The notes below the pieces were generated by a model. It did not search any database, was not told the DNA's origin, and saw only the letters and a program-made list of their open reading frames with translations. The translations under genes and the position numbers were made by a program. A DNA stretch of 46,600 nt from a virus, in IMG/VR virus record IMGVR_UViG_3300010885_039998, positions 1-46,600 of that record, one strand, 5' to 3'. Shown piece by piece: positions 9,873 to 26,604 of the stretch; position 1 is the first letter of the stretch, and every line of letters begins with the position of its first letter.

Positions 9873-9895
9873 CTTCATGTATATGCTGCTTGTTA

Positions 9896-10492: not shown

Positions 10493-10515
10493 GTTAGTCT
10501 CCTATGTTGCAAACA

Positions 10516-10523
10516 TATTTATG
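10516..10523 (-). promoter_or_regulatory. Late promoter variant upstream of gene 19
   Basis: The minus strand reads CATAAATA, one base from TATAAATA, 23 bases before the gp19 ATG and upstream of its ribosome site. Confidence 0.55.
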
Positions 10524-10553
10524 CCGTGCCGTCCTCGCTAAATCATGGATAGA

Positions 10554-10582
10554 TTGCACACGCAAGTAGCATAAGTTAAATT
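10554..10582 (+). promoter_or_regulatory. Possible sigma-70-type promoter of the rightward island operon
   Basis: TTGCAC (10554-10559) is followed after 17 bases by TAAATT (10577-10582), 20 bases before the desaturase ATG. The -10 is poor, so this is only a candidate. No late promoter element is seen here on the plus strand. Confidence 0.3.
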
Positions 10583-10601
10583 GTTAGGATCGGAAAGCTC
10601 C

Positions 10602-11363
10602 ATGGTATCCAAAACAGTAATAGACAAATATGCATTATTCGTGTTACAGATCACAGCGCATGCTGGACTAGTAGCGCAGATAATCTATGGCACGTGGTAC
10701 CACTGGCTTATCACGGCTTTCATCTATTTACTTACTGGCTGCTTTGGTATGACCATGACCTATCACAGGCTACTCAGCCATAGAAGCTGGAAAGCACCCA
10801 GATGGTTCGAAATTTTTGGTACAATTTGCGGAACCTACGGACTCACGGGCAGTAGCATAGCCTGGGTGGCTATTCACCGAGAACACCATCATCATACTGA
10901 TGATGAGCAAGACCCACACAGTCCAATACACAAGGGATTTGCTCGAGTGCAATGGTTCAGCATGTTTGAAAAACCAAATCCGAGATATGCTCTGCATCTC
11001 ATACGAGACCCGCTGCATGCGCAGCTTCATCAGCACTATGTTATCATACACCTTGCGATCCTAACCATATTATTCTATATAGATCCCATGCTTTGCCTAT
11101 GTTTATATTTGGCCCCAGCTGCTGTGCTTTGGAATGCAGGTTCATTTATCAACACTATCACTCACATGACAGGATACAGGAATCATCAAAATGCAGATCA
11201 CAGCACCAACGTGTGGTGGTTAGGTTATCTGATGTGGGGAGAAGGATGGCACAACAATCATCACCACTCGCCAAATAACGCAAGATTTGGAGAAAAGTGG
11301 TGGGAAGTTGATCTAGGACATGCATTCATTAGAATGCTGGATAGAAACACATCCAATGACTAA
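10602..11363 (+). CDS. Membrane fatty acid desaturase (acyl-CoA desaturase type)
   Basis: From the ATG at 10602 (a TTG at 10581 would add seven residues) the protein is 253 residues. It belongs to the diiron membrane desaturases that put a cis double bond into an acyl chain. All three His boxes are present: HRLLSH near residue 54, HREHHHH near 92 and HNNHHH near 225. Four hydrophobic segments (about 10-45, 65-85, 145-165, 168-190) match the fold. It is shorter than typical bacterial members (about 300 aa) but lacks no catalytic part. First gene of the rightward operon; overlaps the next gene by 8 bases. It could alter host membrane lipids or an acyl part of the island product. Confidence 0.92.
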   Translation: MVSKTVIDKYALFVLQITAHAGLVAQIIYGTWYHWLITAFIYLLTGCFGMTMTYHRLLSHRSWKAPRWFEIFGTICGTYGLTGSSIAWVAIHREHHHHTDDEQDPHSPIHKGFARVQWFSMFEKPNPRYALHLIRDPLHAQLHQHYVIIHLAILTILFYIDPMLCLCLYLAPAAVLWNAGSFINTITHMTGYRNHQNADHSTNVWWLGYLMWGEGWHNNHHHSPNNARFGEKWWEVDLGHAFIRMLDRNTSND

Positions 11364-11925
11364 GATAACAGCCTATAGATCCTTGTTCAGCAGAGATTTT
11401 GAAACCTTCAGATTTGGTACCATGACCGACGGCAATGACAGCCTTGCGCTTAGAAAGATTGATCCAGACAATTTCAAAGGTAAGATATGGTGCAGCTGGG
11501 AACAGGGCAAGATTGTAAGCATCCTAGCCTTGGAAGATGATAGATATACCAAGACACCAAGATGCGGCAGGATATGCAGATACCATATCTTGAAAGAATA
11601 TCGGCATGGTAGATACGGTTTTAAGATGCTGGATTACCTATTCGAATATGCCAAAGATGTCTATGACATGATCTATTGGACGCACGATATAAACAATAAA
11701 CCTCTGAATGCGCTGTACCAACACAAGAAACGGTTCTACGACGGCGGAGATAACAGTTACTATGATCGAGAACCTTTCTCGCTGCTGCAATTAGACACTA
11801 GGTTGCTGTTCAAGGATAGTCCTAGTAGCAAGATGCTACAATACGTGTATACTATTAAGTTCAAGGATTTTGATTGGCAGCCTAGCAGCGGAGTCATATG
11901 GCAGGAACACGACGGCGTCCTATGA
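11356..11925 (+). CDS. GNAT-like acyltransferase
   Basis: With the start at 11356 (inside the desaturase stop region) the protein is 189 residues; an in-frame ATG at 11320 seems too deep in the desaturase. The middle resembles a GNAT acetyl-CoA fold: beta strands around GKIWCSWEQGKIVSILALED, then CRICRYHILKEYRHGRYGFKMLDYLFEYAK, where the basic turn and following helix take the place of the acyl-CoA pyrophosphate loop, then DMIYWTHDINNKPLNALYQHKKRFYDGG. Similarity is weak and no acceptor can be assigned. The stop overlaps the next ATG (ATGA), so it is translated together with the radical SAM gene. Confidence 0.55.
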   Translation: MTKITAYRSLFSRDFETFRFGTMTDGNDSLALRKIDPDNFKGKIWCSWEQGKIVSILALEDDRYTKTPRCGRICRYHILKEYRHGRYGFKMLDYLFEYAKDVYDMIYWTHDINNKPLNALYQHKKRFYDGGDNSYYDREPFSLLQLDTRLLFKDSPSSKMLQYVYTIKFKDFDWQPSSGVIWQEHDGVL

Positions 11926-13622
11926 AGCGTGTACAACTAGGCTCATTTAGCGTGATGCACAGCGATTGGTTGCCTTATGCAACAGGCTGTCTGATCAGCT
12001 ATTGCAATCAACACGAATTAATTCAAACCAAATATGAATTTTTAAGCCCCTGGTACAGATACCAACCAATCAACGAATATCAAAAATCGTTTGATAGCAT
12101 AGATATCCTAGGACTAACCTGCTATGTATGGAATCAAACATATAACGATAAACTTAGCAAGGTATACAAATCGCATAATCCACATGGCACTGTGATATAC
12201 GGCGGTCCTAATGTGCCCGCAGATCAGAAAATGGCCAAGAATTTTGCAGATAAACGCCCATGGGTAGATCTGCATTTTGTCGGCCCAGGAGAAAAGAACT
12301 TTGCCAATTGGCTCATGTCAGGAGAATTACAAGGCACGTTCGCTGTAGATCATTTTGCTGTGGGCGACGTGCGAACATATCAGATCGAGACGATGCCAAC
12401 GCCTTACACAGATGGTGTTTTTGATCAAATCTTAGATTCAACAGACAAGATCAAGGCCAGCTTTGAGACCAACCGAGGATGCCCATATGCCTGTGCATTC
12501 TGTGATTGGGGCGGCCAAGCACAGAGCAAGCTCACTAGATTTGAATGTACTGCCGTACAGGCGCAGATAGATCGCATCTATCAACACAAAAACATAAATG
12601 AAGTAGAGATACTGGATGCGAACTTTGGGATTGTCAAGGAAGATGTTGAAACCATAAGATACATGATTGATGCGCAGGTCAAACATCATCATCAACCATT
12701 TGTCAGCTACAGCGGGTTGGCCAAGAATGGCAGCAAATGGTTGCCGGATATTCTGGATCTAATATTCAATAATCTCCCAATAAGACAGCGTAATCTCAAG
12801 ATCAGCTTTCAAACGCACGACCTGAACACGTTAGATATCATACAGCGACACAACATTGACAACACCAAATTGTATCCATTGATTGAAACTTATAAAGCCA
12901 AGAAGATACCCACTACCAGCGAATTGATAATTGGTTTGCCAGGAGAGACTGCAGAGAGCTGGCTGAAAACTTTGGATCATAACTTTCAGTTAGGCATAGA
13001 TTATATACGCACCTATTTCTTGAATGTGGTACCCAACACCCAGATGCATGATGCAGCATATCAAGCAAAGCATGGCATCAGAACCAAACTATTGCGTTTT
13101 CCATATGAATTCAGCAGCCTTGGATATGACGCTCTGCATCTGGATATCAATAGAAGGTGTAATAGTGCCGATGACCAAGAAGAAATAGAAATCATTTATC
13201 AGAACCACAGTTACGACCTAGACGAACTGTTGTTGATGTTTGATTATCATTGGTTCTATCACAATCTGATCAACAGCAACGGCATACGACCGTTGGTCAA
13301 AGATCTGTATCACGAAACCAAAGCTTTCCATGCAGCCTTACCAAACATGCCTACAATATCGTCTATTGTTGACAAAAATCGTAACATTATCAAACAGATA
13401 TTCAAACCAGAATCAGTAACTCACATCAATGACCTAGGTAGCTACTTCTATTTCAGCCGATGCTTGCGCACTGACGATGTATATCAGCTGTGGGCTAGGA
13501 GAGACAGCATAATAGCTGAGCTATCCTTGATTTATGACGCTGCTGAAGTGTCTAACACCATTGGTGCATGGCGCAGAGATTTTGACTATAACCTCTATGG
13601 AACAGATGCTAACCTCAGATGA
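11922..13622 (+). CDS. Radical SAM protein with B12-binding-like N-terminal domain
   Basis: Starting at the ATG in the ATGA overlap gives 566 residues. The N-terminal 150 look like a Rossmann cobalamin-binding domain (IDILGLTCYVWN, GTVIYGGPNVP, DLHFVGPGE), though I cannot find the DxHxxG cobalt-ligand motif, so it may bind B12 base-off without His or not at all. The radical SAM core carries Cys187, Cys191, Cys194 (CPYACAFC) followed by DWGG, then EILDANFGI and a TSELIIGLPGET motif typical of B12-radical SAM proteins. About 170 C-terminal residues are unassigned. Members of this class methylate or rearrange inert carbons. It overlaps the PLP gene by 26 bases. Confidence 0.85.
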   Translation: MKRVQLGSFSVMHSDWLPYATGCLISYCNQHELIQTKYEFLSPWYRYQPINEYQKSFDSIDILGLTCYVWNQTYNDKLSKVYKSHNPHGTVIYGGPNVPADQKMAKNFADKRPWVDLHFVGPGEKNFANWLMSGELQGTFAVDHFAVGDVRTYQIETMPTPYTDGVFDQILDSTDKIKASFETNRGCPYACAFCDWGGQAQSKLTRFECTAVQAQIDRIYQHKNINEVEILDANFGIVKEDVETIRYMIDAQVKHHHQPFVSYSGLAKNGSKWLPDILDLIFNNLPIRQRNLKISFQTHDLNTLDIIQRHNIDNTKLYPLIETYKAKKIPTTSELIIGLPGETAESWLKTLDHNFQLGIDYIRTYFLNVVPNTQMHDAAYQAKHGIRTKLLRFPYEFSSLGYDALHLDINRRCNSADDQEEIEIIYQNHSYDLDELLLMFDYHWFYHNLINSNGIRPLVKDLYHETKAFHAALPNMPTISSIVDKNRNIIKQIFKPESVTHINDLGSYFYFSRCLRTDDVYQLWARRDSIIAELSLIYDAAEVSNTIGAWRRDFDYNLYGTDANLR

Positions 13623-14391
13623 ATTTGCAGTTCAAGCTCGCCAAAAGCTAGTGAGCCAATCCATAGCTATTCGCACAGGCATGCTAGCGGAAGTTAGGAA
13701 GGTATGTCATAGCATACGACCAGATTATAACAGTGTGAGAAAGTATACCACCAATATCAAAGATTGGCTACTACCGGTCATTGACCTTAGAGACTATCAT
13801 GTTTATCCAACATGCGGCATCACCGAAGGTCTCAATTGGTGGTATGATAAAGAACGCCGCACGGTAGATATGGCACAAGGAGATTACCAATGGATAACCA
13901 AGACTGGCAACGATGTACTCTATGTAAGCATGCCATCTGCTATAGATGGCAACTTACGTGCAATAGATGATCAGCGCCCAGTCGTGTTAGATCTGGCATA
14001 TGTGGGGTCTAATCTTCCAATGCCTATCAGCAATCGGAATGTTGAAAAAGCATTCTTCAGCCTCAGCAAATCGTTTGGTTTACGCAATATTCGCACAGGA
14101 TGGTATTTCAGCCGAACCGAGGACCAAAGGTTAGATGGGTTGATACATAGTGCTAAATATTTCAATTACTACGCATGCGACCTAGCCGAGGCAATCATTG
14201 ACCGATTTCACATTGGTTATGTCTATGACAAACTGCACGACCAGCAATTGAATGTATGTAAACTGCTCGGACTCACAGCCTCAGACAGCGTTTGGTTGGC
14301 AACCAGCACAGACGACGAATATACTAAATTTAGAAGGCACAGTAATATAGCTCGTATATGCCTAGCAGGATTGTATGATTATGCAGCTTAG
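13597..14391 (+). CDS. Small PLP-dependent fold-type I (aminotransferase-like) protein
   Basis: The 264-residue product (ATG 13597; ATG 13606 also possible) carries the core of a class I/II aminotransferase: GITEGLNWW near 74, VVLDLAYVG near 129-137 with Asp132 for the pyridine nitrogen and Tyr135, then FFSLSKSFGLRNIRTGW with Lys158 for the PLP Schiff base and Arg166 for phosphate. Aminotransferases are usually about 400 aa, so much of the small domain is missing. It is a distant paralogue of the leftward-arm protein at 24262-25164, which keeps the same order of residues. Both lie next to radical SAM genes. Reaction unknown; transamination, decarboxylation or a carrier-bound variant are possible. 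Confidence 0.75.
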   Translation: MEQMLTSDEFAVQARQKLVSQSIAIRTGMLAEVRKVCHSIRPDYNSVRKYTTNIKDWLLPVIDLRDYHVYPTCGITEGLNWWYDKERRTVDMAQGDYQWITKTGNDVLYVSMPSAIDGNLRAIDDQRPVVLDLAYVGSNLPMPISNRNVEKAFFSLSKSFGLRNIRTGWYFSRTEDQRLDGLIHSAKYFNYYACDLAEAIIDRFHIGYVYDKLHDQQLNVCKLLGLTASDSVWLATSTDDEYTKFRRHSNIARICLAGLYDYAA

Positions 14392-15112
14392 AAAATTCCA
14401 TTATCCAGCGTGTGCTATGCTTCCTCACATAAAGTTTAACCTCGATCTTTTGAGAGCAGAAGTAGCATCCTTAAACGAGCAATGGGTAAATGTGTTCCAA
14501 GCTAACCGAGGATTGTGTGCTACTCATGAAGAGCTAGCACAGGATAATCATGCTCATTTTGATCAGATCAACCTAACCTATTTTGAACCCTCGTTGAACG
14601 ATTTCTTAGATCTCTCCGAACTCAAGGCAGAATGCAAGCTGATAGCAAACAGCGATTCTATTGGCACTACCAAGACGCAGCGCCATCGCACCAAGATCAA
14701 TAGATTAGACACGTTACCTCCTGCGATGAACGAACACAATTGGTTTCATCCTTTGCCAATTTATGAAAATTCTTATATCAAACAAGCAATCGAAAGCCAG
14801 TTCCAAGCCAAGCCAATCAGAGTGAGATTGACCAGGCTCAAGGCTGGCAAATATCTTACACCGCACATAGACTATGACACTACCTATGCAGTGCGCATCA
14901 TCGTGCCAATCAGTGGTACAGATGGCGTGACCAACGTGTTTTGGCCTAGAAACACGCGCCAAGAAGTAAACATGTCAGCTGACGGCAGTGCATACTTCCT
15001 CAATGTTGGTTATAAACACAGCGTAGAACACAACGGCCACGAGGATCGAGTGGCGCTCATGTTCAGTCTACCTACTCAAGAAGATATTCAAGATCTGATC
15101 CTGCAGGTATAA
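14375..15112 (+). CDS. Aspartyl/asparaginyl beta-hydroxylase-like Fe(II)/2OG oxygenase
   Basis: The 245-residue protein has the AspH-type cupin core in its second half: RLTRLKAGKYLTPHIDYD with the iron pair His164 and Asp166, then GSAYFLNVGYKHSVEHNG...R with distal His215 (or His219) and Arg225 for 2-oxoglutarate. These enzymes hydroxylate amino-acid side chains or small molecules. The first 120 residues are unassigned. The start overlaps the PLP gene by 17 bases, and another oxygenase-like gene follows after 3 bases. It is one of five different proteins of this class in the operon. Confidence 0.75.
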   Translation: MIMQLRKFHYPACAMLPHIKFNLDLLRAEVASLNEQWVNVFQANRGLCATHEELAQDNHAHFDQINLTYFEPSLNDFLDLSELKAECKLIANSDSIGTTKTQRHRTKINRLDTLPPAMNEHNWFHPLPIYENSYIKQAIESQFQAKPIRVRLTRLKAGKYLTPHIDYDTTYAVRIIVPISGTDGVTNVFWPRNTRQEVNMSADGSAYFLNVGYKHSVEHNGHEDRVALMFSLPTQEDIQDLILQV

Positions 15113-15115
15113 CAC

Positions 15116-15739
15116 ATGTGGAACGAGATTATCAATGATCATCTTTGGTCCTGGGACAACTTCTTGTCCGCCAGTAGCCTAGAAAGGACGCTTGATGCCA
15201 TCAATTCAAGCACAGCCGTGGAAAAAGACAGCCACGAAACCAATCATTACATTGGTGTCACTCACTACAATTACAATGTGGTTAAACACAATTTTAGAAA
15301 CGACATTGCATTGATATCAGAGGTATACAGCAAGCTAAATCTGTTATATCAACCATTGTTAGACAAACAGGTCAGTGTTGAGTCGTTGAATGGTAATGCC
15401 TTTTGGGCCAAGGTTTTCAACGCCCGCAGCAATTTCGAGATGCACGTTGAGACCAAGGACATTTTCGGAGAAGTAGTATTCTTGTTGTATCTCAGCGACG
15501 AGGTTGACGGCGCATTGATCCTACCAGATGAACACACAGCTAGGCAAAATTATTGGACTAATGGATTCCAGGATATCTATGAAAAATACCCAGTTGCGTT
15601 TGTTGGACCCTATAAATTTCTGCCAAAAAAGAATACCTGTTTGGTTATGAGAGTAGAGACTGCACATCTGGTTGAACCATGCAGCGGTCTACGTCCCACC
15701 CTTAATGGTTGGAGCTTTAATTCTGGCATCAGCTGTTAA
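15116..15739 (+). CDS. Putative Fe(II)/2OG oxygenase-like protein
   Basis: The 207-residue protein shows a plausible but atypical iron site: FNARSNFEMHVETKDIFGEVVFLLYLS with His110 and Glu112 (HxE instead of HxD), DGALILPDEHTA as the following strand, and VMRVETAHLVEPCSGLRPTLNGW with distal His184 and Arg193. The spacing resembles prolyl-4-hydroxylase-like oxygenases. The Glu for Asp change is known in some members but may also mean altered activity. Its 3' end overlaps the end of a gene on the other strand by 11 bases. Confidence 0.55.
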   Translation: MWNEIINDHLWSWDNFLSASSLERTLDAINSSTAVEKDSHETNHYIGVTHYNYNVVKHNFRNDIALISEVYSKLNLLYQPLLDKQVSVESLNGNAFWAKVFNARSNFEMHVETKDIFGEVVFLLYLSDEVDGALILPDEHTARQNYWTNGFQDIYEKYPVAFVGPYKFLPKKNTCLVMRVETAHLVEPCSGLRPTLNGWSFNSGISC

Positions 15740-16373
15740 GTAGCTGTTGTATTTCAGATATTCTTGGCCCAAGGATTCGTTTCAACAACACAATATCATG
15801 CTGCTGGAGATACAGTTCCATGAACTCTAAATTTCTATCTGTGCACTGCAGCCCTAGTTTGGCAAAAGCTGCAGCTAGCCCAGATGGCGTTATGATGTCT
15901 TGCCAGGTCACACACAGTGGCATAGCCTGTTCACAGGCAGTGTTGATATATCTTGAATAGGCGTTTGTGCGCAATGCATCCCTGGTTATGGCAAAAAATT
16001 GTTCACGAGGTTTATCCCAGTACAATGCAGCACCCTTGATTGCTGTTAATCGCAACCAACTTTTCTCATCAGTGTATAAAGCCATTTTGTGGCCGGGATA
16101 TTTTTGCCAGTTATCCCAACCCCACATATTATTAAACAGATAAACCTTGTTTTTATCTGTGTCTGCGCTGAGCGTGGCTTGGTTATCAGGCCAAATCTCA
16201 TTATCTTTCCATGACTGCCGATCAATGCTGAATGTGTGCTGCCTGACGCGATCATAGCTCCAATCTTCAAAATCATTACCAAAGCTGCAGAAATAGTCAC
16301 CCGTCAACAGTAATTGATGCAACAGGTAGAAGCCGCCAGCGCCGCCAATGTAATATAGGTTTAAGTCTGTCAT
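15729..16373 (-). CDS. Unknown protein, possibly P-loop/sulfotransferase-like, on the opposite strand
   Basis: The only leftward gene inside the rightward arm. With ATG 16373 the product is 214 residues; a TTG at 16406 would add 11. It opens with a short strand and a Gly-rich turn then helix (NLYYIGGAGGFYLLHQLLL), the layout of a nucleotide or PAPS-binding loop, and ends with SGLAAAFAKLGLQCTDRNLEFMELYLQQH, similar to the C-terminal part of small sulfotransferase-like proteins. No consensus motif is complete. It is convergent with the oxygenase before it and divergent from the next gene. Function is not assigned with confidence. Confidence 0.5.
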   Translation of the reverse strand: MTDLNLYYIGGAGGFYLLHQLLLTGDYFCSFGNDFEDWSYDRVRQHTFSIDRQSWKDNEIWPDNQATLSADTDKNKVYLFNNMWGWDNWQKYPGHKMALYTDEKSWLRLTAIKGAALYWDKPREQFFAITRDALRTNAYSRYINTACEQAMPLCVTWQDIITPSGLAAAFAKLGLQCTDRNLEFMELYLQQHDIVLLKRILGPRISEIQQLLNS

Positions 16374-16426
16374 CCTAATACTACTTAACTTGACTCTGGT
16401 AGGCAAAATGCATCATCATAGTCATC

Positions 16427-17251
16427 ATGAGATTTAATTGGGACAATCCTAGACTGATCATTGGATGCTGGCCTATGTTGGCTGGCGGCGAATTCATTAT
16501 AAGATGTTTGGGTATGAGCAAACACATGATTCCTATCGCCAATGCTGCTGACATACAAGAAATGATATCACAATCGCTGACCGAAAGCAATAGCAAAAAT
16601 ATCTATAAACGGCGCTACGATATCATCATAAGCTATGCACCAGACGGCAACGTGAAAAATGGCGGCGATTGGCATAAGAATTTTCTTAACAGTGCCAATT
16701 GGTTAGATACTGACCGTTTGTTCTTGCAAGAAACTTCTGGCAGGACGATATATGGTAGGCCTAGCTGGTTCAGCACAACGCTATGGACTGATGCCAATCT
16801 TGCATCTCGTGGATATTTCGATAGATTTTGGAGAAACCCAAGCTGCAAAGTCAGCTGTTCTGATCTGGGATTGGTGATCAAGACCCACGTGAGATCAGAA
16901 GTTGAAGGGTTGCTCTATCTCATGCCACAGGCCAAGATCTTCAGTTTGGATAATTATGACAATTGGAAAGCGTTTTGTTCCAAAAGTAAAGTCATGCCAA
17001 ACAAATTATCAGTTTGGCAGTCAGCTGAACCCTATCAAGTGATAGATAATAGTTTTGTCTTTAACATGGATGATCTCATGTGGTCAGATGACGCATTCTT
17101 GCAGCAGATGCAATCCGCCTTTGAGTATTTTGAACTTGATGATTTTGAGTCAGTCAAAGATCATTTGCCAGCACTCAAAGCAGAATACATTAGATGGAAC
17201 GAAGAGTTTGGCAGCTGTTATTACAATGGTGATAACGTGGAGAGAATATGA
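16427..17251 (+). CDS. Unknown protein upstream of sulfotransferase
   Basis: The 274-residue product begins NWDNPRLIIGCWPMLAGGEFIIRCLG. This again looks like a strand, Gly-rich turn and helix comparable with the neighbouring minus-strand gene (15729-16373), so a sulfotransferase-like P-loop fold is possible. The middle (YDIIISYAPDGNVKNGGDW, GLVIKTHVRSEVEGLLY, MPQAKIFSLDNY) has alternating beta and alpha character. The C-terminal 60 residues are helical and acidic. The stop overlaps the next ATG (ATGA), coupling it to the clear sulfotransferase. I recognise no catalytic residues. Confidence 0.55.
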   Translation: MRFNWDNPRLIIGCWPMLAGGEFIIRCLGMSKHMIPIANAADIQEMISQSLTESNSKNIYKRRYDIIISYAPDGNVKNGGDWHKNFLNSANWLDTDRLFLQETSGRTIYGRPSWFSTTLWTDANLASRGYFDRFWRNPSCKVSCSDLGLVIKTHVRSEVEGLLYLMPQAKIFSLDNYDNWKAFCSKSKVMPNKLSVWQSAEPYQVIDNSFVFNMDDLMWSDDAFLQQMQSAFEYFELDDFESVKDHLPALKAEYIRWNEEFGSCYYNGDNVERI

Positions 17252-18051
17252 TTAACGGTTTCAAAGGAGTTGTGGTTTTTTCTGCAGCAAGATCTGGTAC
17301 AACGCTGCTGATAGAGCAGCTAACCACAATACTGTCTCGCAAAAATCCAACAATAAACGTGAAAAATCTCTATGAGTTGTTTGATACCACGTTGGTATTT
17401 GATACAAGCTGGAACAAATGTTGGATAGACCACAATGAAGATATACCAAGACCAGCAACAAACGCCATGGACATTTGGCGTTTAGACAGGGTTATTTCGC
17501 AATCAAACGACGGATCATTGTTTCCAGTCTTTAAGATTTTCATGAATGATATCACTCCTCATAATTGGCCATTCATACGAGAGCTAATCAATGACGAGAA
17601 ATTTTACAAGATATCATTGCTTAGAAAAGATGTTTGCAACACAATTTATTCTGGAATACTAGGCAGAGCCTTGAATCGCTGGGAAAAACGCAACGGGGAA
17701 GTGATCGGTACACCTCGAACTGAAAAATATTTTGCTGAACCAAAACTCTATAACTTTTTAGGCACAGCAATCATGAGGAATTTTGATTGGGCCATGTTCC
17801 ATCAACGATCAATGAATGATATCATATGGTATCACCAACTAATCAATGATCAAATAGCCTTTGAAAAACTTAACATTGACATACAAGACATGGCCAATGT
17901 GCGTAATCAATCAAATAGCCTGCAGAAAATCAACACAGATCATCAAACCGATATCAGTCTAAGCTGCACTAATCACAAAGATATCATAGATTTTGCTCGC
18001 AGCATCGACAAATCTTGCCAAACTGTGATCAAAAGGATTGCCGAATCATGA
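17248..18051 (+). CDS. PAPS-dependent sulfotransferase
   Basis: The 267-residue protein has the two sulfotransferase signatures: the 5'-phosphosulfate loop VVVFSAARSGTTLLIEQL at residues 8-25, and a 3'-phosphate region ISLLRKDVCNTIYSGILGRALN at about 126-147, with Arg and Ser placed as in the family. Such enzymes move sulfate from PAPS to a hydroxyl or amine on a sugar, lipid, peptide or small molecule. The start overlaps the upstream stop, and its own stop forms ATGA with the next gene. No membrane anchor is visible, so it should be cytoplasmic. Within an operon full of oxygenases, sulfation of a newly made hydroxyl is an attractive but untested idea. Confidence 0.8.
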   Translation: MINGFKGVVVFSAARSGTTLLIEQLTTILSRKNPTINVKNLYELFDTTLVFDTSWNKCWIDHNEDIPRPATNAMDIWRLDRVISQSNDGSLFPVFKIFMNDITPHNWPFIRELINDEKFYKISLLRKDVCNTIYSGILGRALNRWEKRNGEVIGTPRTEKYFAEPKLYNFLGTAIMRNFDWAMFHQRSMNDIIWYHQLINDQIAFEKLNIDIQDMANVRNQSNSLQKINTDHQTDISLSCTNHKDIIDFARSIDKSCQTVIKRIAES

Positions 18052-19099: not shown

Positions 19100-19727
19100 G
19101 TTCCTACCACTGGATCTACCTTTGTTTGCACACAAAGACAAGGTATTAAAGACTTTTGATCTCTTTAACAAGAAACCATTCTTTTGGTGGGATGAAGTAG
19201 AATTGACCGACAGAGACTACGACACTCCATTTGAATGCGCCAATGCTTGGAATGCCGTAGCCAAGGACAATTTTGCCGATCTGCTCAATTACATCGATCA
19301 GCATTTTCCATTTGAGCATGTGGTATATGCCAAACTGATCAGGGCTAACAAAGATGTGGCGCCTCATGTCGATAACAACTATGTGGACGTTGACCAACAC
19401 AGCGGCCACAGATTCAACACCATAACCAAAGAGTATCTACAACATCAGCGCGAGACTGAACCCTGCGGTTATAGAATGCTGATACAGGGTAATCGCAACA
19501 ACCTATATCTCACAGACAGCAGCTTCAAACACAAGACCTATTGCAAAATACCAGAGTCAACTGACTGTTTCGTGCTCAAGACCAACGACAGCCCACATGG
19601 TGTTGACAAGATTTCAGATGATGATAATAGGCTATTGCTGTTTATCATAGGTAAACTAAACACGCAAGAGCATGCAAGACTTATAGAGAAAAGCTATGAA
19701 AAATATCAAACCTATTCAAGAACTTGA
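19089..19727 (+). CDS. Fe(II)/2OG oxygenase-like protein
   Basis: The 212-residue protein has VVYAKLIRANKDVAPHVDNN, giving an HxD pair at His93 and Asp95. After a variable loop comes CFVLKTNDSPHGVDKISDDDNRLLLFIIG, with distal His near 170 and a following Arg. GYRMLIQGNRNNLYL fills the strand before the distal motif. This is the AspH/prolyl-hydroxylase-like order of residues. Its neighbours on both sides of the SDR are also oxygenase-like or transfer enzymes. It overlaps the next gene by 32 bases. Substrate unknown. Confidence 0.65.
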   Translation: MVARFLPLDLPLFAHKDKVLKTFDLFNKKPFFWWDEVELTDRDYDTPFECANAWNAVAKDNFADLLNYIDQHFPFEHVVYAKLIRANKDVAPHVDNNYVDVDQHSGHRFNTITKEYLQHQRETEPCGYRMLIQGNRNNLYLTDSSFKHKTYCKIPESTDCFVLKTNDSPHGVDKISDDDNRLLLFIIGKLNTQEHARLIEKSYEKYQTYSRT

Positions 19728-20409
19728 CAGTTTATTACTTGATGAGCTCCACAGCTTAGAATCTCTTAAACCAGAATTAGATTGGGAGATAGCTAGATGG
19801 TTAAATGCCAACCCAATATTCAACGATCCGCGTATCAATGTGCCATTCTATAAAGATACACGCTATGATGTTGATGGCATCAATGAGATGTGGGATCAAT
19901 CTCCGGATCCGTCAGACATTGCCATGACCAGCACTTGGATATATGTCAAGGGCAAATATATCACTCACACATATGCATTGCCTATATTAAACGGCAAGCA
20001 TACCAAATATTATGAACAGTTCAAGAGCTTGCAGCATTGGTATAAACAGTTGCCATTCACGCAGATTGATATGGTAACATTAAACTTCTGTCATGCCGGA
20101 CAAGCATCTGTGTGTCATTGTGATTTTGCTGACCTCAAAGATTCCAATGTTGTTGATCGGTACTATGACAAGGACAACTACTTAAATCACGATTATCTGC
20201 TGTTTCACAGCGATCCAAGGCGACGATTCTATGCTGTCACCAGAGATGGTGAAAAAGTCTATAAACCACACTGCGTAGTCTGCACGTTTGATCAAACTCT
20301 CGATCACGGAGTCGATGCAGTAGATTTCTTTACATGGTCCATGAAAATAGGAGGATCGTTCACAGATGAGTTCAGAGACAGATACCAACTTTTGGTTGAT
20401 CAAGACTGA
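19696..20409 (+). CDS. Fe(II)/2OG oxygenase-like protein, divergent
   Basis: The 237-residue product has TLNFCHAGQASVCHCDFADL with His141 and Asp143 as an HxD pair, and VVCTFDQTLDHGVDAV with distal His204. The usual 2-oxoglutarate Arg is replaced by Lys in WSMKIGG near 217, so 2OG binding needs proof. The first 120 residues are helical with no known domain. A GAGAAAAG ribosome-type site precedes the ATG inside the previous gene, and the end overlaps the SET gene by 44 bases. Confidence 0.55.
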   Translation: MKNIKPIQELDSLLLDELHSLESLKPELDWEIARWLNANPIFNDPRINVPFYKDTRYDVDGINEMWDQSPDPSDIAMTSTWIYVKGKYITHTYALPILNGKHTKYYEQFKSLQHWYKQLPFTQIDMVTLNFCHAGQASVCHCDFADLKDSNVVDRYYDKDNYLNHDYLLFHSDPRRRFYAVTRDGEKVYKPHCVVCTFDQTLDHGVDAVDFFTWSMKIGGSFTDEFRDRYQLLVDQD

Positions 20410-20725
20410 ATACCGGCAGTCGCCAATACACGGTTTTGGTCGATTCACTCTCGAAGATATCAACGCGAACAAGTTAGTGCTGGTTCTGGGCGGCACCATA
20501 GGTGACAAAGGTAGCATGCCAATACGAGGCACCAAACTTTTCATAGATAATCCACAGACACATATCAACCACAGCAGCAGACCAAATCTAGAGCTAGATG
20601 GTCAGATCTTGTTTAGATCATGCAAAAACATTGCTGCTGGATCAGAGCTCACATTGGATTATACCACATTTACCAAATTGAATTTTGTGCCAGTAGAAGA
20701 AAGTGAGCAGCATGAAACACGTTGA
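20366..20725 (+). CDS. Minimal SET-domain protein lysine methyltransferase
   Basis: The 119-residue protein is a complete but minimal SET domain. It has SPIHGFGRFTLEDI at 19-32 (the G-x-G SAM loop), IRGTKLFIDN in the middle, INHSSRPN at 67-74 (the NHS pseudoknot strand) and AGSELTLDY at 91-99 with the catalytic Tyr. There is no post-SET Cys cluster. SET enzymes methylate protein lysines; the Chlorella virus vSET is equally small. An AGGAGG site lies 11 bases before the ATG inside the upstream oxygenase gene. Target (phage protein, host protein or peptide) unknown. SET domains are rare in tailed phages as far as I know. Confidence 0.85.
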   Translation: MSSETDTNFWLIKTEYRQSPIHGFGRFTLEDINANKLVLVLGGTIGDKGSMPIRGTKLFIDNPQTHINHSSRPNLELDGQILFRSCKNIAAGSELTLDYTTFTKLNFVPVEESEQHETR

Positions 20726-21278
20726 AAAACTTGACATCAGTTTTGATATCTCAGAATTATGCAATGGACTATCACAGGTTTTGGAAATTTGCGATTGGCA
20801 TCCACATCACAATCAAATTGGTCTAACACATAGTCTAGGCGATGGAGCAGTTAAAGGTTGGTACGACGCTGCAGGCAGTTTAGAATACGAGTGGGGCAAC
20901 GATGCATTTGACGAAAATGGCCAACTGAAAAAATCTACGAGAAAGAGATCTGAACAGGAATTTGTAACATTTGTTTCTGAATTTAATCATACCATATGGA
21001 AGCATGTATATGATGTTCTGTCAATCAGATACAGGTTGGGCAGGGTTCGATTGATGAGATCTAAACCAAAATCTTGCCTAAGCTGGCATAAAGATTCGGA
21101 AAAGAGATTGCATATTCCTGTCATAACCAACCTCGGTGCAAGGTTAGTAATAGAAGATGCGGCTAATCACCTTATCGCAGACGGCAGCGTATATATCGCA
21201 GATACAACCAAACCACACACAGCATTTAATGCCGGATTAGAACCACGCATACACTTTGTAGCCTGTATCTTAGATTAA
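20712..21278 (+). CDS. Aspartyl/asparaginyl beta-hydroxylase-like Fe(II)/2OG oxygenase
   Basis: From ATG 20712 the product is 188 residues (GTG 20703 would add three). The AspH pattern is the clearest of the group: KSCLSWHKDSEKRLHIPVITN with His126 and Asp128, then DGSVYIADTTKPHTAFNAGLEPRIHFV with distal His169 and Arg179 for 2-oxoglutarate. The N-terminal half is unassigned. It is the last gene of the rightward arm, overlaps the SET gene by 14 bases, and meets the leftward radical SAM gene end to end (4-base overlap of stops). A hydroxylase paired with a protein methylase suggests protein or peptide side chains as a substrate. Confidence 0.8.
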   Translation: MKHVEKLDISFDISELCNGLSQVLEICDWHPHHNQIGLTHSLGDGAVKGWYDAAGSLEYEWGNDAFDENGQLKKSTRKRSEQEFVTFVSEFNHTIWKHVYDVLSIRYRLGRVRLMRSKPKSCLSWHKDSEKRLHIPVITNLGARLVIEDAANHLIADGSVYIADTTKPHTAFNAGLEPRIHFVACILD

Positions 21279-22405
21279 GAAACTATGATTCTCTTTTTTG
21301 GTATCTTGCTGTCTGCTGAGCTAACACAAGCATCTGATATGCAGGGCATGGGTTGATCAAACAACTTAAATCCAGTTTCTATATAACCAAGAGGTTTGTC
21401 ACTGCAGCTATAACTGCGCTTGATAGCACCATCTGGTTCACGGATGATTATGCTGCGATAACCGCTCTCACAGTCCCAACCATTAAATTTATTGAAATTG
21501 AACGCATTGAATCGCTCAGCTTGGTCCATGTACCATTTCTTGCCAGTGTTATCTTCAAATTCTACCTGCATTATCTGAGGCACTGTAGCATCGTCTCCGT
21601 TGCGAATGCTCATCTTCTGCATGCTGATCTTGGGTTTTGGCCTCTCAACCTTGCTCTTTACAGCAGTGAAATCACGTTGCGGCATACCATTGTGTAGCGT
21701 AGCCAGCTGTTCTTTGGTATAACCATCAACTACTCGGCTAGCAGTAGGATCGCTCTGCGGTTTGAGCGTTACGTTAATTCCTCGGCTTAGAAAATATTCT
21801 GCTTCCTCATACAACGTATCAAACCACTCAGGTACCATAACGGTGTTAACAGTGACCTGCACATCATTTTCTTGCAAGAAGACCAGTTTATCAGCAAATT
21901 TCTCAGTGTGCGCTTTGAGATCGCCTTGCTTTATACCTTGCTCTCTATGCCAACTTGCTGTCACACTCACTCTATTGATATCTTTGGTAGCATCTACATA
22001 TTTTTCAAACCATCGCAACCCTTGCGATATGTTTGATGTCATATGTACGCTTTGATAATTGCAATTTTCTGTGTCATTGCTATAGTGTTCTAACAATCGA
22101 AGATAGTCGGGATAAACCGTTGGTTCACCGCCGCTGAAGCTGAAATGGAAACTGTTATATCCACGTTCGCGGCTCTGTCGTTTGATCTCATCCATGGTCA
22201 TAGCATTAAGTTCAAACGGACGGTAATCTTTGGTATCGCTGCGAGCATAAGGCCAGCAATAGCTGCACTTATAATTGCAATAGCGTCCTAGCAACCAACT
22301 CACAGCAAATATGTCTCGATAAAGCAGTGTACGTTGTCCGAACCTTGTGATGCGGTCAAATGGTATCTGCGTGAAATCATAGGAGCTTACTGCATCATTG
22401 GACAT
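21275..22405 (-). CDS. Radical SAM enzyme (single-cluster type)
   Basis: The 376-residue protein has the triad Cys43, Cys47, Cys50 in RYCNYKCSYCWP, then FHFSFSGGEPTVYP near 86-99 (SAM-binding GGEP), HMTSNIS near 122 and NTVMVPEW near 193, all typical of the core barrel. No N-terminal four-Cys set like that of its neighbours is present. The C-terminal part has Cys at CESGYRS, YSCSDK and MPCISDACVSS, which might bind one auxiliary cluster (SPASM/twitch-like at the C-terminus). Last gene of the leftward arm; its ATG lies inside the SDR-like gene (overlap 11 bases). Substrate unknown. Confidence 0.85.
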   Translation of the reverse strand: MSNDAVSSYDFTQIPFDRITRFGQRTLLYRDIFAVSWLLGRYCNYKCSYCWPYARSDTKDYRPFELNAMTMDEIKRQSRERGYNSFHFSFSGGEPTVYPDYLRLLEHYSNDTENCNYQSVHMTSNISQGLRWFEKYVDATKDINRVSVTASWHREQGIKQGDLKAHTEKFADKLVFLQENDVQVTVNTVMVPEWFDTLYEEAEYFLSRGINVTLKPQSDPTASRVVDGYTKEQLATLHNGMPQRDFTAVKSKVERPKPKISMQKMSIRNGDDATVPQIMQVEFEDNTGKKWYMDQAERFNAFNFNKFNGWDCESGYRSIIIREPDGAIKRSYSCSDKPLGYIETGFKLFDQPMPCISDACVSSADSKIPKKRIIVS

Positions 22406-22958
22406 TCTTATTCTCCTGCACAGGATCTATGCTTAGTTCATTTATAGAGATATCAGTTGGTTGATCCAATATCCATTTGACATAATTCGCAGCTACGTCT
22501 ATATCCATGCATGTGCGATTAGGATGTTTATGTTGATTGTTGCTTAGTGTTCCAAAGCTTAACAAAGTCACTCTAGGACCTCCGCTCCAGGTGCCTAATA
22601 AACCTAAACTATTGCAATAGCTTCGCAGTGCTTTCTTTTCCTGCTGATAAATCCAATCACTGGCTTTGGAGGTCCTATCAGTGGTGCTACCTATGCATAT
22701 GATGCGCAGGTTATGATTAGCATCCTTTGCTGCCTTGTAAACCTCTTGAAGCACCAATGTCTGCTGGAACTGCCATAATGCACTGTTGTTGATAAACACA
22801 TCATACTTCAAGGCTTCTTGTGCGAGATCTCTACGGCGTTGGTCATTTGTTAGATCCCAGCCATTTTGCCTGCTGGCAAACACAGTATTGGGCCATAATT
22901 TGAACAGAGATTGAGCCAAACCTTTATTGGGATTGCCTGTTATCAATAGCTTATTCAC
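22395..22958 (-). CDS. SDR-like NAD(P)-binding oxidoreductase
   Basis: The 187-residue product opens LLITGNPNKGLAQSLFKL, a modified TGxxxGxG loop, followed by YDVFINNSALW (NNAG strand) near 54-64 and IICIGSTTD with the active-site Ser near 88-96. YQQEKKAL near 108-115 gives the expected YxxxK. It is better preserved catalytically than the rightward-arm SDR. It is short because the substrate-binding end is trimmed. Start overlaps the upstream radical SAM stop by 4 bases, and the end overlaps the next radical SAM gene. Confidence 0.72.
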   Translation of the reverse strand: MNKLLITGNPNKGLAQSLFKLWPNTVFASRQNGWDLTNDQRRRDLAQEALKYDVFINNSALWQFQQTLVLQEVYKAAKDANHNLRIICIGSTTDRTSKASDWIYQQEKKALRSYCNSLGLLGTWSGGPRVTLLSFGTLSNNQHKHPNRTCMDIDVAANYVKWILDQPTDISINELSIDPVQENKNVQ

Positions 22959-24265
22959 AGATAAGCTCCAATCTCTGGTATTATTTCAATGACATTCTCA
23001 CCTCGGATCTTGTCCATCTTTGCTGTATATGACTTGAATTCTTCCCAGTGAGTTGGATGATAATCTGCTGACATCATGTAGTCTATTATGCTCTTGCGTA
23101 TGCTATCACTCTGTGCAATGATTTGGTCAGAGTAACCTTGAGATATCACCCAGTTGTGGAATTGGTTAAATCTCTCAACCACCAGTTCTTTGAAAGCTGC
23201 GGGCAATACTCGTATGTTAAGATAGGGAGGATTGTGCGCTACGTGGTGCGTTACGATTGGTCGCCTGTTGGTATTATTGAACTTAGTAAGACCGCTTTCA
23301 CTTAATTTCCATTTCATAAATTCTGGCATGTGTAACACATTATAAGCAGTGACCGTGTAGGCAAACCAAGCATTGATGCTGGTTACTTCTGCATCAACTT
23401 TTTGTATGTTGCGCCAGACCTTGCTCCATTCAGCCGGATATCTTTGATATTCTAATACCTTTCCATATCCGTCAATGCTAGCTCCAAGCTGTATCATCTT
23501 GAAATTCTTCCAGAGATTGATCACTCGAGATGGCATGGTAGTCATGTTCGTGTTGTATTCTATGAGCATGTTTGCAGCAGCACCATTTTCTATGCAACGT
23601 TCTAAGAATTCATAATGCCTTTCGATCAGAAGAGGTTCGCCACCAGCCATGTAAACATGTTGGACATTGCCGTCATTTGCTTCTATCTGTTTCCAAAAAC
23701 TGTCGCTATCGTGCCAACCATAGCTATTGCTAAACCATTTGCCGTTCTGTTTGAACATCTGTTCTCGACCATGGGTGTCATTAAACCAATCTACGTCATA
23801 TAACTTGTTCCAATCGTCATACCAACCGGTGCTGTCTTGTGGACCACACATGCGGCATGCTAGATTGCAGAGATTACCAAATCGCAGATCATAATAGGTA
23901 ACTGGCAGTTTATTGGTATCTATGGTACCGTCAGTGGCAGTATGTTCAATAACATCTTCCTTGCGCAAAGACCACCTGTCGTGCTCATAATTGCGCCTGC
24001 TAACCAACCCAGATTCTTCTTCTGACCTGCAGCGTCCGCATTCGTCGCTCCATACGCCGTCAAGCATGTTCTGGCGCATGATCTTCATGAGATCACTGTT
24101 GCGAGCTTCGGTTAGATCATCGGCTGCGGCATTATACGGCGTTCCGTCTGATTTACGCAGGACGCCTTTGTTCTTGGTAATGTTAGCCTGACAGCATACA
24201 CGTAGATCGCCATTGCTGCGAACTGCCTGGAAGTTCCAGGGTATGGGGCACCATGTATCGGTCAT
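22955..24265 (-). CDS. Radical SAM enzyme with N-terminal twitch-type auxiliary cluster domain
   Basis: The 436-residue protein starts MTDTWCPIPW. Cys6, Cys24, Cys76 and Cys79 (C-x17-C...C-x2-C) probably hold an auxiliary Fe-S cluster ahead of the barrel. The radical SAM triad is Cys133, Cys137, Cys140 (CNLACRMC), followed by HVYMAGGEPLL. It is a clear paralogue of 25161-26528 (same Cys spacing, same DGTxxNAAxDDxxxxRNS segment, same GGEP region) and a more distant relative of 6597-7742. Members of the N-terminal-twitch group have mostly unknown substrates. Both ends overlap neighbours by 4 bases, so it belongs to the five-gene leftward operon. Confidence 0.88.
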   Translation of the reverse strand: MTDTWCPIPWNFQAVRSNGDLRVCCQANITKNKGVLRKSDGTPYNAAADDLTEARNSDLMKIMRQNMLDGVWSDECGRCRSEEESGLVSRRNYEHDRWSLRKEDVIEHTATDGTIDTNKLPVTYYDLRFGNLCNLACRMCGPQDSTGWYDDWNKLYDVDWFNDTHGREQMFKQNGKWFSNSYGWHDSDSFWKQIEANDGNVQHVYMAGGEPLLIERHYEFLERCIENGAAANMLIEYNTNMTTMPSRVINLWKNFKMIQLGASIDGYGKVLEYQRYPAEWSKVWRNIQKVDAEVTSINAWFAYTVTAYNVLHMPEFMKWKLSESGLTKFNNTNRRPIVTHHVAHNPPYLNIRVLPAAFKELVVERFNQFHNWVISQGYSDQIIAQSDSIRKSIIDYMMSADYHPTHWEEFKSYTAKMDKIRGENVIEIIPEIGAYL

Positions 24266-25164
24266 ATCCTATCCTGCTTCCTAGCCTTTACTAGATTACG
24301 TATACCTATCCTGTTGTAACCATCGACATTGAAATCAGACCAATTGCTGTCTCCGAGCGCAATATGCATGCATTTGGTAGGCGTTAATCCTGCATCTGCG
24401 CACACGCTTAGTTGATGCTGACGATATCTATTCGGAATGAAATCAGGTGATCCCAGATAGTCAATGAAATACATTCCTATCCTAGCTGCGCCTAACACGG
24501 TGTGATCGTATCTGTTTTGTTGAGCAATAGGGAAATCGTCGTCTATGTTGCTATAGCGAACTCCGCTGCGTATGTGTCCAAGTCCAGTTCCTTTGGTCAA
24601 ACTGAAACTCACGCTTTCAATCGCAGGATGTTCTACCGAAAATTCAACATCAACAGAAGTGCCTATGTATGCACAGTCTACTATCACAGGGACCTTTAGA
24701 TCATAACAACTATCTAACATGCTATAGAAATCAGCTGGTACATCACCAGTGGTGCAATGAGGAACACTGACTATGACATAATCATTTTCAGCTATCGGCT
24801 CATCTTCTATAAATTTCCAATCCTTGACTATACGGCGATGATAGGCATATTCTCCACGGTAGAACCTCAGTCTACGATTGGCATATCTGTGATAAGATTC
24901 GTCAAAAGTCTGGGTCGTCCCATTGATCAGATGCCTATGTTGGAATCTATCTAGTCCGTCTATACGATTTAACTTCATGTTAGCTAGATAATTTTTGTAT
25001 ACCCATAGATAGTCTAGTCTACAATTCAGTGGGTCGCTGTGATCAGTAAACCATTTAGCCCATGGTATTTCCTTAAACAAGGTCACAAATTTGGCATCAT
25101 ACACTGCCTGTGTTTTCTTGCTAACCAATTCTTGTTCTATCAAAGATTTCTTATCAAACATCAC
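24262..25164 (-). CDS. PLP-dependent fold-type I (aminotransferase-like) protein
   Basis: The 300-residue protein has the aminotransferase order of residues: VIVSVPHCTTGDVP near 130, PVIVDCAYIGTS with Asp163 (pyridine nitrogen) and Tyr166, then SVSFSLTKGTGLGHIRSG with Lys191 for the Schiff base and Arg199 for phosphate. Asp-to-Lys spacing is 28, against 26 in the paralogue at 13597-14391. The C-terminal domain is short. It is coupled on both sides to N-terminal-twitch radical SAM genes by 4-base overlaps, which suggests that PLP and radical SAM steps act in sequence. The product could be an amino-sugar, amino acid or modified peptide; nothing in the sequence decides this. Confidence 0.78.
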   Translation of the reverse strand: MMFDKKSLIEQELVSKKTQAVYDAKFVTLFKEIPWAKWFTDHSDPLNCRLDYLWVYKNYLANMKLNRIDGLDRFQHRHLINGTTQTFDESYHRYANRRLRFYRGEYAYHRRIVKDWKFIEDEPIAENDYVIVSVPHCTTGDVPADFYSMLDSCYDLKVPVIVDCAYIGTSVDVEFSVEHPAIESVSFSLTKGTGLGHIRSGVRYSNIDDDFPIAQQNRYDHTVLGAARIGMYFIDYLGSPDFIPNRYRQHQLSVCADAGLTPTKCMHIALGDSNWSDFNVDGYNRIGIRNLVKARKQDRI

Positions 25165-26528
25165 AGCTCCGTGGTATCTGTCAATATCGCATGGAATTCT
25201 TTCAAACTATGTGACATTAATTCATTGCGTATCTCGTCTAATTTATTAGTATATCTCCAAAATTTTGGTAACGCGTCTGATTGATCTTCGTGCAGCATGA
25301 ATTTCTTCCATTTCAGCAGATGGTCAGCAACACCTCGGCTGATCAATTCGCGCCTTGCATCGTCATCAGGATAGAGTTCATTACTGAGGGCCTGCAGTTG
25401 TGGTAACCGTGTGTCAAAGTGCTGCGCTATAGCTAGCTTAACATTATTAGGTAACGCTCTGCAACTGAGATGTTTTGGATTGTACAATGGATGAAATAAT
25501 ATCAGCGGACTAAATTCGGTCCAACCTATACGTTGGAATTTCTTGCGCATGAACCATTCTAACATGTCTGGTATATACCATATGTTATAAATCATCACAG
25601 TGCTGGCTATCCATACGTTGAAATTTATGGTTTGATCAGAGTCTATCCTATCTAGATTTTCTTCAATCATTTGCCATTTGCTGGGATGCCGTATGTAATC
25701 ATTCACATCGCCTATGCCATCCACGCTTGCGCCAATCCTCACCTGTTTGAAATGCGGCCACAGTTCCCAGGCCCTAGGAGGTATCTTGACGATGTTGCTG
25801 TTGTATTCGATGATCATATTACGGCTAATACCTAGATCTATGCAACGCTGCAGGAAATCATACTGTTGATCTATGAGCGTTGGTTCTCCGCCAACAGTGT
25901 GCACATGTTTGATGTTAGTGGCATTCTTATCAACGTGTTCCCAGAACTTAGAGCTCTCGTACCACTCATACTGCTTGGTATTTGGCAGCAATCGACCTGT
26001 GTCATCTCGAGAAAGCGTTACTTGCCCAAAGCTCTCTTTGTACACATTTGTATTCCAGACTGCAGCATAATCTTCGTACCAAAAATTGCTCTCGGTGGGA
26101 CCGCAGCTGCGGCATTTGATATTGCACTTATTGCCAAATCTCACACCGTAATGCATGATAGGAACATCGTTGATATTGATAGATCCATCTGCTGCAGTGA
26201 TTTCGCGGGCTCGATCAATGTTGAAAACATCAGACCAGAGATTGGTCTCGTTCTGATTATGGCTTAGCATACCCGATTCTGTTTCGTGCTTACAACGAGT
26301 GCATACCGGATGCCATTCACCGGCCAACATGCTCTGTCGCATCTCACGCAGAAGCATGGAATTTCGGCTTTGATCTATGTCATCAACTGCAGCATTAAAT
26401 GCAGTACCATCGTCTTTGCGCAAGCATCCTTGATCTCTGCCCTGCTGGCTGTGATTGCATACGCGCATGTCGCCATTGTTGCGTATATCTGCACTAATCC
26501 AAGGTAAGGGGCACCATGCTTTGCTCAT
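25161..26528 (-). CDS. Radical SAM enzyme with N-terminal twitch-type auxiliary cluster domain
   Basis: The 455-residue protein begins MSKAWCPLPW and keeps the four Cys of its paralogue at 22955-24265 (Cys6, Cys24, Cys76, Cys79). Where that paralogue has CC at 24-25 this one has CN, so only the first is essential. The triad is Cys135, Cys139, Cys142 (CNIKCRSC), followed by HVHTVGGEPTLI. First gene of the leftward arm. Upstream lies a 10-base direct repeat carrying two TATAAT hexamers, but no good ribosome site precedes the ATG. Substrate unknown; the tandem paralogues could act on two positions of one molecule. Confidence 0.88.
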   Translation of the reverse strand: MSKAWCPLPWISADIRNNGDMRVCNHSQQGRDQGCLRKDDGTAFNAAVDDIDQSRNSMLLREMRQSMLAGEWHPVCTRCKHETESGMLSHNQNETNLWSDVFNIDRAREITAADGSININDVPIMHYGVRFGNKCNIKCRSCGPTESNFWYEDYAAVWNTNVYKESFGQVTLSRDDTGRLLPNTKQYEWYESSKFWEHVDKNATNIKHVHTVGGEPTLIDQQYDFLQRCIDLGISRNMIIEYNSNIVKIPPRAWELWPHFKQVRIGASVDGIGDVNDYIRHPSKWQMIEENLDRIDSDQTINFNVWIASTVMIYNIWYIPDMLEWFMRKKFQRIGWTEFSPLILFHPLYNPKHLSCRALPNNVKLAIAQHFDTRLPQLQALSNELYPDDDARRELISRGVADHLLKWKKFMLHEDQSDALPKFWRYTNKLDEIRNELMSHSLKEFHAILTDTTEL

Positions 26529-26575: not shown

Positions 26576-26604
26576 ACAACCCCTGCTTTTGGAGCAGGGG
26601 TTGT
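26576..26604 (-). terminator. Terminator after the tail sheath gene
   Basis: A 12-bp stem (ACAACCCCTGCT with AGCAGGGGTTGT) and 5-base loop lies 6 bases past the sheath stop. On the minus strand it runs into TTTCTCCTT. It separates the sheath transcript from the island. Confidence 0.8.

Follow-up and report, generated by a model that had tools for sequence, protein, structure and literature searches.

In phage T4 the gene for the tail sheath, gp18, adjoins that for the tail tube, gp19. Two of the systems closest to the locus considered here have been described in environmental T4-like phages. Pelagimyophages possess a hypervariable island, the host recognition cluster (HRC), between VrlC and gp14, their radical S-adenosylmethionine (SAM) cassettes differ between close genomes, and islands of this kind have been interpreted as host-surface related (PMC7029224). 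Likewise, one 183-kb T4-like environmental genome carries 12 radical SAM genes and an A-type Fe-S carrier, IscU being encoded in related genomes (PMC5332604). Such islands are known in marine T4-like phages, but their genes have been regarded as scattered and auxiliary. In this study we explore a 46.6-kb virus record (IMGVR_UViG_3300010885_039998; the whole of this stretch is called the window), in which a 16-kb enzyme island lies between gp19 and gp18. We propose, with a probability of about 0.48, that this island is an exchangeable biosynthetic locus of two modules, A and B, which would tailor a small molecule or surface group; both the line of product and the role are what we infer.

The virion genes of the window group it with the jumbo T4-like phages, the closest cultured relatives being Sinorhizobium phage Phosso (terminase 53%) and Agrobacterium phage Atu_ph07 (sheath 43%), and the phages carrying this kind of island are large, T4-like and from water. 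The left border is formed by gp19 (9896-10492, minus strand; phrog_4542, E 5e-49), the right border by gp18 (26610-30695, minus strand; phrog_10581, E 5e-243). The original prediction, made from the sequence letters, of some 20 mostly enzyme-like genes between these borders holds, since 20 open reading frames (ORFs) lie between the two PHROGs matches and 99.9% of 10602-26528 is coding. Dense overlap of these genes had also been noticed rightly, adjoining genes sharing 4-44 bp. Within each arm nearly all genes are on one strand, a single minus-strand gene (15729-16406) standing within the plus arm, and the arms meet, as had been seen, at 21.28 kb with a 4-bp overlap (21275-21278). Two independent short contigs, each at ~100% identity, span gp19-desaturase-GNAT-B12 (L016) and sheath-Twi2-PLP2-Twi1-SDR2-R21 (L012), thereby crossing both outer junctions, and the island is therefore not an assembly join.

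The division of the island into two modules is most apparent on comparison with sister phages. In ten sister loci (L139-L144, L146, L147, L149 and L154) R21, a radical SAM gene of module A, is directly followed by gp19, the gap measuring 60-80 bp in the six for which it is given and holding the gp19 ATAAATA motif and ribosome-binding site. Contigs of sufficient length show the order sheath-(k66)-TWI/PLP2-TWI-SDR2-R21-gp19, and the 216-kb contig of L141 has PLP2 alone, with PLP1 nowhere on it. In the window, it is exactly this R21-gp19 gap that is filled by the 10.8-kb plus-strand module B (10525-21288), a segment absent or different in the sisters. The record G001 is especially informative, its gp19 and terminase being 99% and 99.6% identical to those of the window. 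Here the nucleotide similarity (blastn) extends at 97% over 7755-10524, ends at the late-promoter-like ATAAATA of gp19 (10516-10522, minus strand), and restarts at 21289, within the final codons of R21, to continue at 87% over module A. Between these borders G001 carries another B12-type radical SAM enzyme, two 2-oxoglutarate (2OG) oxygenase-like proteins, a radical SAM enzyme, TauD, AspHyd1-like and 2OG_b-like proteins, and AspHyd2. The sharp borders with different enzymes between them therefore mean that 10525-21288 has been exchanged as a unit. The sister order includes k66, a conserved protein of 94-96 aa found after the sheath in L141, L147 and L154, where it comes after a CCGGGC hairpin and a TTAAATA element; it is absent from the window.

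The claim that the island is one self-contained pathway is not sustained by this comparison, for the two modules are separable and differently distributed, A occurring without B in the sisters. The independent occurrence of the genes in other genomes, which had been named as an argument against a common pathway, is observed for the island as a whole and not for the single modules, whose genes travel together. In related phages enzyme islands recur both at the gp18-gp19 site and elsewhere, with contents that vary strongly between sisters. In the lineage of the window this site is occupied by enzyme islands in G001 (at least 12.8 kb), the 518-kb phage G004 (25.7 kb) and G013 (17.3 kb), with further ones in G014 (19.3 kb) and G032 (more than 16 kb), all with the same families in differing mixes. 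Among other records bearing R21, PLP1 or the B12 enzyme, G003, G005, G009, G045 and G046 have gp18 and gp19 adjacent (93-147 bp between matches) and their cassettes sited elsewhere.

Module A (21275-26528, minus strand) runs Twi_rSAM2-PLP2-Twi_rSAM1-SDR2-R21. The two twitch radical SAM enzymes, Twi_rSAM2 (25161-26528) and Twi_rSAM1 (22955-24265), score 321 and 385 bits against NF033640, for which the cut-off is 170; between them is the pyridoxal phosphate (PLP) enzyme PLP2 (24262-25164), a paralogue of PLP1 having Lys, Asp and Arg in common with it in the A1 alignment, and the short-chain dehydrogenase/reductase (SDR) SDR2 (22395-22958), of the short type, matches PDB SDRs by profile. The module is under purifying selection, the dN/dS of its genes relative to G001 being 0.02-0.09. 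Its hub is R21 (21275-22405), in which an alignment of 25 sequences (73% mean column identity) reveals CxxxCxxC and four extra invariant cysteines (312, 334, 355 and 360); the enzyme is predicted to hold two Fe-S clusters. Across all islands at the gp18-gp19 site R21 is 86-97% identical, as against 73-83% for gp19 (G001 excepted), so that, to judge by identity, R21 is conserved above the level of virion proteins. The R21 profile matched 471 viral contigs, the best 80 all being at least 63% identical; tblastn found no R21 relative in 50,697 phage records, and likewise no match to PLP2 in isolate phages. One distant relative, 25% identical, is encoded by a Photobacterium damselae conjugative plasmid (NZ_CP150465.1, 159964-160878). 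At 54 dereplicated loci a twitch radical SAM gene is found within 9 kb of R21 in 45 cases and within 2.5 kb in 38, and many R21 modules adjoin VWA/MoxR and thymidylate-synthase or dihydrofolate reductase (DHFR) genes, not tail genes. The radical SAM core of R21 resembles, among others, viperin (E 4e-11; weak PADLOC matches), an assignment which we rejected at 41 bits against a curated cut-off of 180, and an AlphaFold model of R21 from 25 sequences (pLDDT 58) was not used.

Module B opens with a membrane fatty-acid desaturase-like protein with three His boxes (10602-11363; PF00487, FA_desaturase, E 4e-14), whose match to the DesA family (E 1e-27) is under the cut-off, and a GNAT acetyltransferase (11320-11925; PF00583, E 2e-8). 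These are followed by a B12-type radical SAM enzyme resembling the C-methyltransferases TokK, CysS and KedN5 (11898-13622; profile against PDB TokK E 5e-60 and CysS 5e-41). Its A2 profile aligns over 23-430 with TokK, covering the B12-binding and radical SAM regions, and CPYxCxFC is conserved; on this similarity the enzyme belongs to the broad group of TokK/CysS-like cobalamin radical SAM proteins, and cobalamin binding is predicted. Against the KedN5 family proper (NF033712) it scores below the curated cut-off (E 8e-45, 153 bits against 700). The enzyme also matches the PADLOC candidate-defence model PDC-M51A (E 2e-32), which we take as superfamily similarity and not as membership of a defence system. 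Next in order are PLP1 (13606-14391), AspHyd1 (14375-15112; Asp_Arg_Hydrox 2OG oxygenase, PF05118, E 3e-5) and 2OG_a (15116-15739), prolyl-hydroxylase-like with HxE..H..R invariant in 15 homologues.

The central part of the module is less readily typed. The minus-strand gene at 15729-16406 encodes a protein with a glycine-rich, P-loop-like N terminus, that at 16427-17251 is possibly sulfotransferase-like, and neither translation matches a family; as with 2OG_c (19696-20409; oxygenase-like by motif, weakly similar to L017 12577-12867, E 8e-6), their assignment is weak. The product of 17248-18051 is a sulfotransferase-like P-loop protein with an ARSGTT motif, whose L014 counterpart gives a borderline match to Sulfotransfer_1 (E 0.0014), and 18048-18620 encodes a methyltransferase-like protein, typed by motif, from a recurrent family (a 35-member cluster). 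The remaining genes are those of SDR1, a short SDR (18605-19099; A5 profile against PDB SDRs, E 6e-9), 2OG_b (19089-19727; HxD..H..R invariant in 16 homologues), a SET-domain protein (20366-20725; PF00856, E 9e-8) and AspHyd2 (20703-21278; PF05118, E 3e-8), all these genes other than 15729-16406 being on the plus strand. Sequence profiles yielded no PDB relatives for 2OG_a and 2OG_b, ten island proteins tried against PHROGs gave no match, and nine of those gave none in NCBIfam. The enzyme list of the original prediction can accordingly be retained for the desaturase, GNAT, four Radical_SAM, two Asp_Arg_Hydrox and SET proteins by Pfam, and for the PLP enzymes, SDRs, 2OG_a and 2OG_b by motif, fold or profile; 2OG_c and the sulfotransferase-like and methyltransferase-like genes are typed by motifs and one borderline Pfam match.

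PLP1 deserves particular attention. By its invariant Schiff-base lysine and pyridine-N aspartate (Lys179 and Asp153 in the longest-ORF numbering, constant in 50 homologues), together with an AlphaFold model (AF2, pLDDT 92) of a shortened fold-type I enzyme nearest to tryptophan aminotransferase and alliinase (PDB 3bwn, E 5e-9), PLP1, and with it PLP2, is assigned to the fold-type I PLP aminotransferase superfamily. Relatives of PLP1 occur in 114 viral contigs, and when 84,980 cellular species in GTDB were scanned with a single motif, one clear and one weak match were returned. The clear one is an 8.6-kb contig with the same cassette plus phage genes, most likely a misbinned phage. L130 (JABAAK010000084.1), filed under a Candidatus Paceibacter metagenome-assembled genome, most probably derives from a T4-like phage and carries the module B core. 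As far as these scans reach, the family is essentially confined to phages. The module B core is present in 68 dereplicated loci, where the genes within 9 kb of PLP1 include AspHyd1 (53/68), the desaturase (45/68), TauD-type and 2OG_b oxygenases (34/68 each), R21 (28/68) and the B12 radical SAM enzyme (27/68), with desat-PLP1-AspHyd1-GNAT-B12 and PLP1-B12-2OG_b-MT as recurrent runs. One of these loci is in the cultured pelagiphage Mosig, in the order AspHyd-desaturase-PLP1-...-TauD-methylase-GNAT-AspHyd1, its proteins being 44% (PLP1), 39% (GNAT), 37% (AspHyd1) and 31% (desaturase) identical to those of the window. The fetched region of Mosig holds no R21, and other contigs also have the module B core without it.

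A further aspect is the equipment for radical SAM chemistry in these phages at large. Twitch radical SAM enzymes (NF033640) number 14-19 per record in G003, G004, G009, G035, G045, G046 and G068, with 16-19 in the first six; in 14 control genomes the family never exceeded its cut-off. An A-type Fe-S carrier, which numerous radical SAM enzymes would require for their operation, is encoded in 11 of the 25 records tested and in roughly half of the large ones with R21, and neither Atu_ph07 nor Phosso has one. This multiplication and the Fe-S carriers agree with the account of the 183-kb genome (PMC5332604) and with the pelagimyophage radical SAM cassettes (PMC7029224). In the window itself another twitch enzyme, rSAM_0 (6597-7790, minus strand; 233 bits against the cut-off of 170), lies outside the island in the tail/head-closure operon, overlapping both neighbouring genes. 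Sister phages also carry a twitch gene at this place, and that of G001 is 38% identical to rSAM_0, compared with 97-99.8% for its tail neighbours, a disparity by which rSAM_0 also seems to have been exchanged.

How the island is expressed can be approached through its few regulatory signals. The reported lack of a late motif is confirmed, there being no exact ATAAATA in 10523-30729, but it says little because there is hardly any intergenic DNA within the island; outside the island nearly all copies are intergenic, mostly just upstream of structural genes. The count has no useful control, the motif being identical when read backwards. A strong terminator-like hairpin with a stem of 12-13 pairs (26576-26604) stands between the sheath and module A, and two TATAAT boxes precede the first ATG of this minus arm, which comes after the sheath gene. 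These elements suggest that module A has its own promoter and do not bear on timing, the earlier suggestion of early expression staying conjectural.

Some neighbouring features may be mentioned here. The sheath is unusually long (1361 aa), a length class common to Atu_ph07-like phages. A second tail-tube-like protein of 539 aa (8212-9831) has a long Gly/Tyr-rich C-terminal part not present in its shorter Atu_ph07 counterpart, and is a possible modification target. Four consecutive glycosyltransferase-like genes (38978-42888) sit between a tRNA nucleotidyltransferase and further structural genes.

On the reading that we propose, module A, with its two twitch radical SAM enzymes, PLP enzyme, SDR and R21, would make or install a common core group, a part suggested by its being the constant element in this phage lineage, and module B would be the tailoring set, providing desaturation, hydroxylation, C-methylation, acetylation and possibly sulfation. 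The short gap that separates R21 from the gp19 promoter would be where module B is exchanged as one block. The output would most likely be an amino-acid- or acyl-derived small group, free or attached to a surface molecule of host or virion, with decorations varying from phage to phage, a variation to be expected if superinfecting phages, host defences or receptors select for chemical diversity. No widely conserved small ORF that could be a precursor peptide was found near the anchors (2.2% noncoding), and Pfam detected in the 20 island proteins neither an RRE/PqqD domain, as used in recognition by pathways for ribosomally synthesised and post-translationally modified peptides (RiPPs), nor a carrier or assembly-line domain of nonribosomal peptide or polyketide synthases (NRPS/PKS). 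Taken with the kinship to TokK and CysS, this speaks for a small molecule, or for an acyl or surface group, rather than for a RiPP or the product of an assembly line. Saxitoxin- and sphingolipid-type pathways have similar gene lists and were rejected, their defining enzymes being missing. Three observations weigh against the proposal: half of the gene types in module B are supported by motifs; protein substrates are known for enzymes of the Asp_Arg_Hydrox, SET, GNAT and twitch/SPASM types; and modules A and B are also found apart, by ~90 kb in G003, and may serve separate products.

The second of these observations leads directly to the main rival, which is that the enzymes modify proteins, either of the virion tail and fibres or of the host, by hydroxylation, lysine methylation, acetylation, sulfation and radical chemistry, altering adsorption or allowing escape from host factors. 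What puts this reading first among the rivals is that the island sits among tail genes and that proteins are the substrates of several of the families; rSAM_0 is even within the tail operon, and in other phages the cassettes are often beside tail-fibre-like genes. We nevertheless consider it unlikely, since the desaturase, SDR, PLP1 and TokK-like C-methyltransferase better suit small molecules or lipids, many R21 modules have VWA/MoxR and thymidylate-synthase or DHFR genes as neighbours instead of tail genes, and no extra substrate ORF is conserved. Lipids are themselves the substrate if the island remodels the lipid or lipopolysaccharide (LPS) of the infected-cell surface, the desaturase and an LpxO-type Asp_Arg_Hydrox enzyme altering acyl chains and the others adding polar groups, so that superinfection is blocked. 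An acyl-desaturase with PF05118 is indeed the commonest neighbourhood, the host-surface interpretation of pelagimyophage islands (PMC7029224) points the same way, and glycosyltransferase-like genes are at hand at 38978-42888; yet these are outside the island, which contains no glycosyltransferase or sugar-nucleotide enzyme, and no B12 or twitch radical SAM enzyme is known to take part in LPS changes made by phages, making this explanation distinctly improbable.

Still lower stands hypermodification of nucleic acid, that is, decoration of DNA or tRNA bases. Radical SAM, PLP and GNAT enzymes are generally known to serve phage thymidine hypermodification, and the thymidylate-synthase or DHFR genes adjoining some R21 modules would fit, but genes for nucleotide binding or base transfer are absent from the island, and in several contigs with R21, some of them large though possibly incomplete, no thymidylate synthase homologue was found; we accord this very little credence. 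The 5-hydroxymethyldeoxyuridine (5-hmdU) kinase PF18723 matched in 0 of 14 records, but the control likewise gave no match, which leaves that search uninformative. Hardly any credence at all is left for the idea that an insertion hotspot has gathered a loose set of unrelated morons that share no product. The strong differences in content between sisters are what such a hotspot would give, but unrelated phages have the same families at different sites, often similarly ordered, and the 4-44 bp overlaps and the arms with nearly all genes on one strand do not suit chance accretion.

Given these considerations, we return to the two-module biosynthetic locus and to what it would mean. What is new here is the resolution into two modules whose borders are defined, with a hub enzyme that hundreds of uncultured viruses encode and a PLP family nearly restricted to phages, and accessory genes of unknown function thereby become a testable system, the core of one module being held by the cultured Mosig. 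A bolder extension, which we find rather doubtful, is that the R21 hub, the multiplied twitch radical SAM enzymes, the phage-only minimal PLP enzyme and the swapped modules constitute, in large T4-like phages, a dedicated and largely phage-exclusive, natural-product-like chemistry, yielding a class of molecule not made by cells. If a new molecule is indeed made, this would be a viral biosynthetic pathway, likely used in phage-phage or phage-host competition.

Compared with known systems, the locus is in each case both similar and distinct. Atu_ph07 and Phosso have the same virion gene set, and in them too gp18 and gp19 are not adjacent, but in their gap (2.4-3.2 kb) an enzyme island is missing and there are a few genes, small or for RNA-binding proteins, and their whole genomes contain no twitch radical SAM gene. 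R21 shares its radical SAM core with viperin (pVip), from which it differs by the four extra invariant cysteines in its C-terminal region. TokK and CysS methylate small-molecule natural products, and the match to TokK extends over most of the B12 enzyme of the window, which is however without carbapenem, cystobactamid or enediyne partners. With the pelagimyophage HRC the island shares the principle of a variable enzyme cassette inside T4-like structural genes, as well as families in common, including those of Mosig (EXVC030M, MT647606), but the site is different, being gp18-gp19 and not VrlC-gp14, and the lineage is a jumbo one whose island includes module A and R21, neither of which is in the fetched region of Mosig. 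Finally, in the available portion of the work on the 183-kb genome and its relatives (PMC5332604) modules, a hub enzyme and exchange are not described; the phage records examined here have up to 19 twitch radical SAM genes each.

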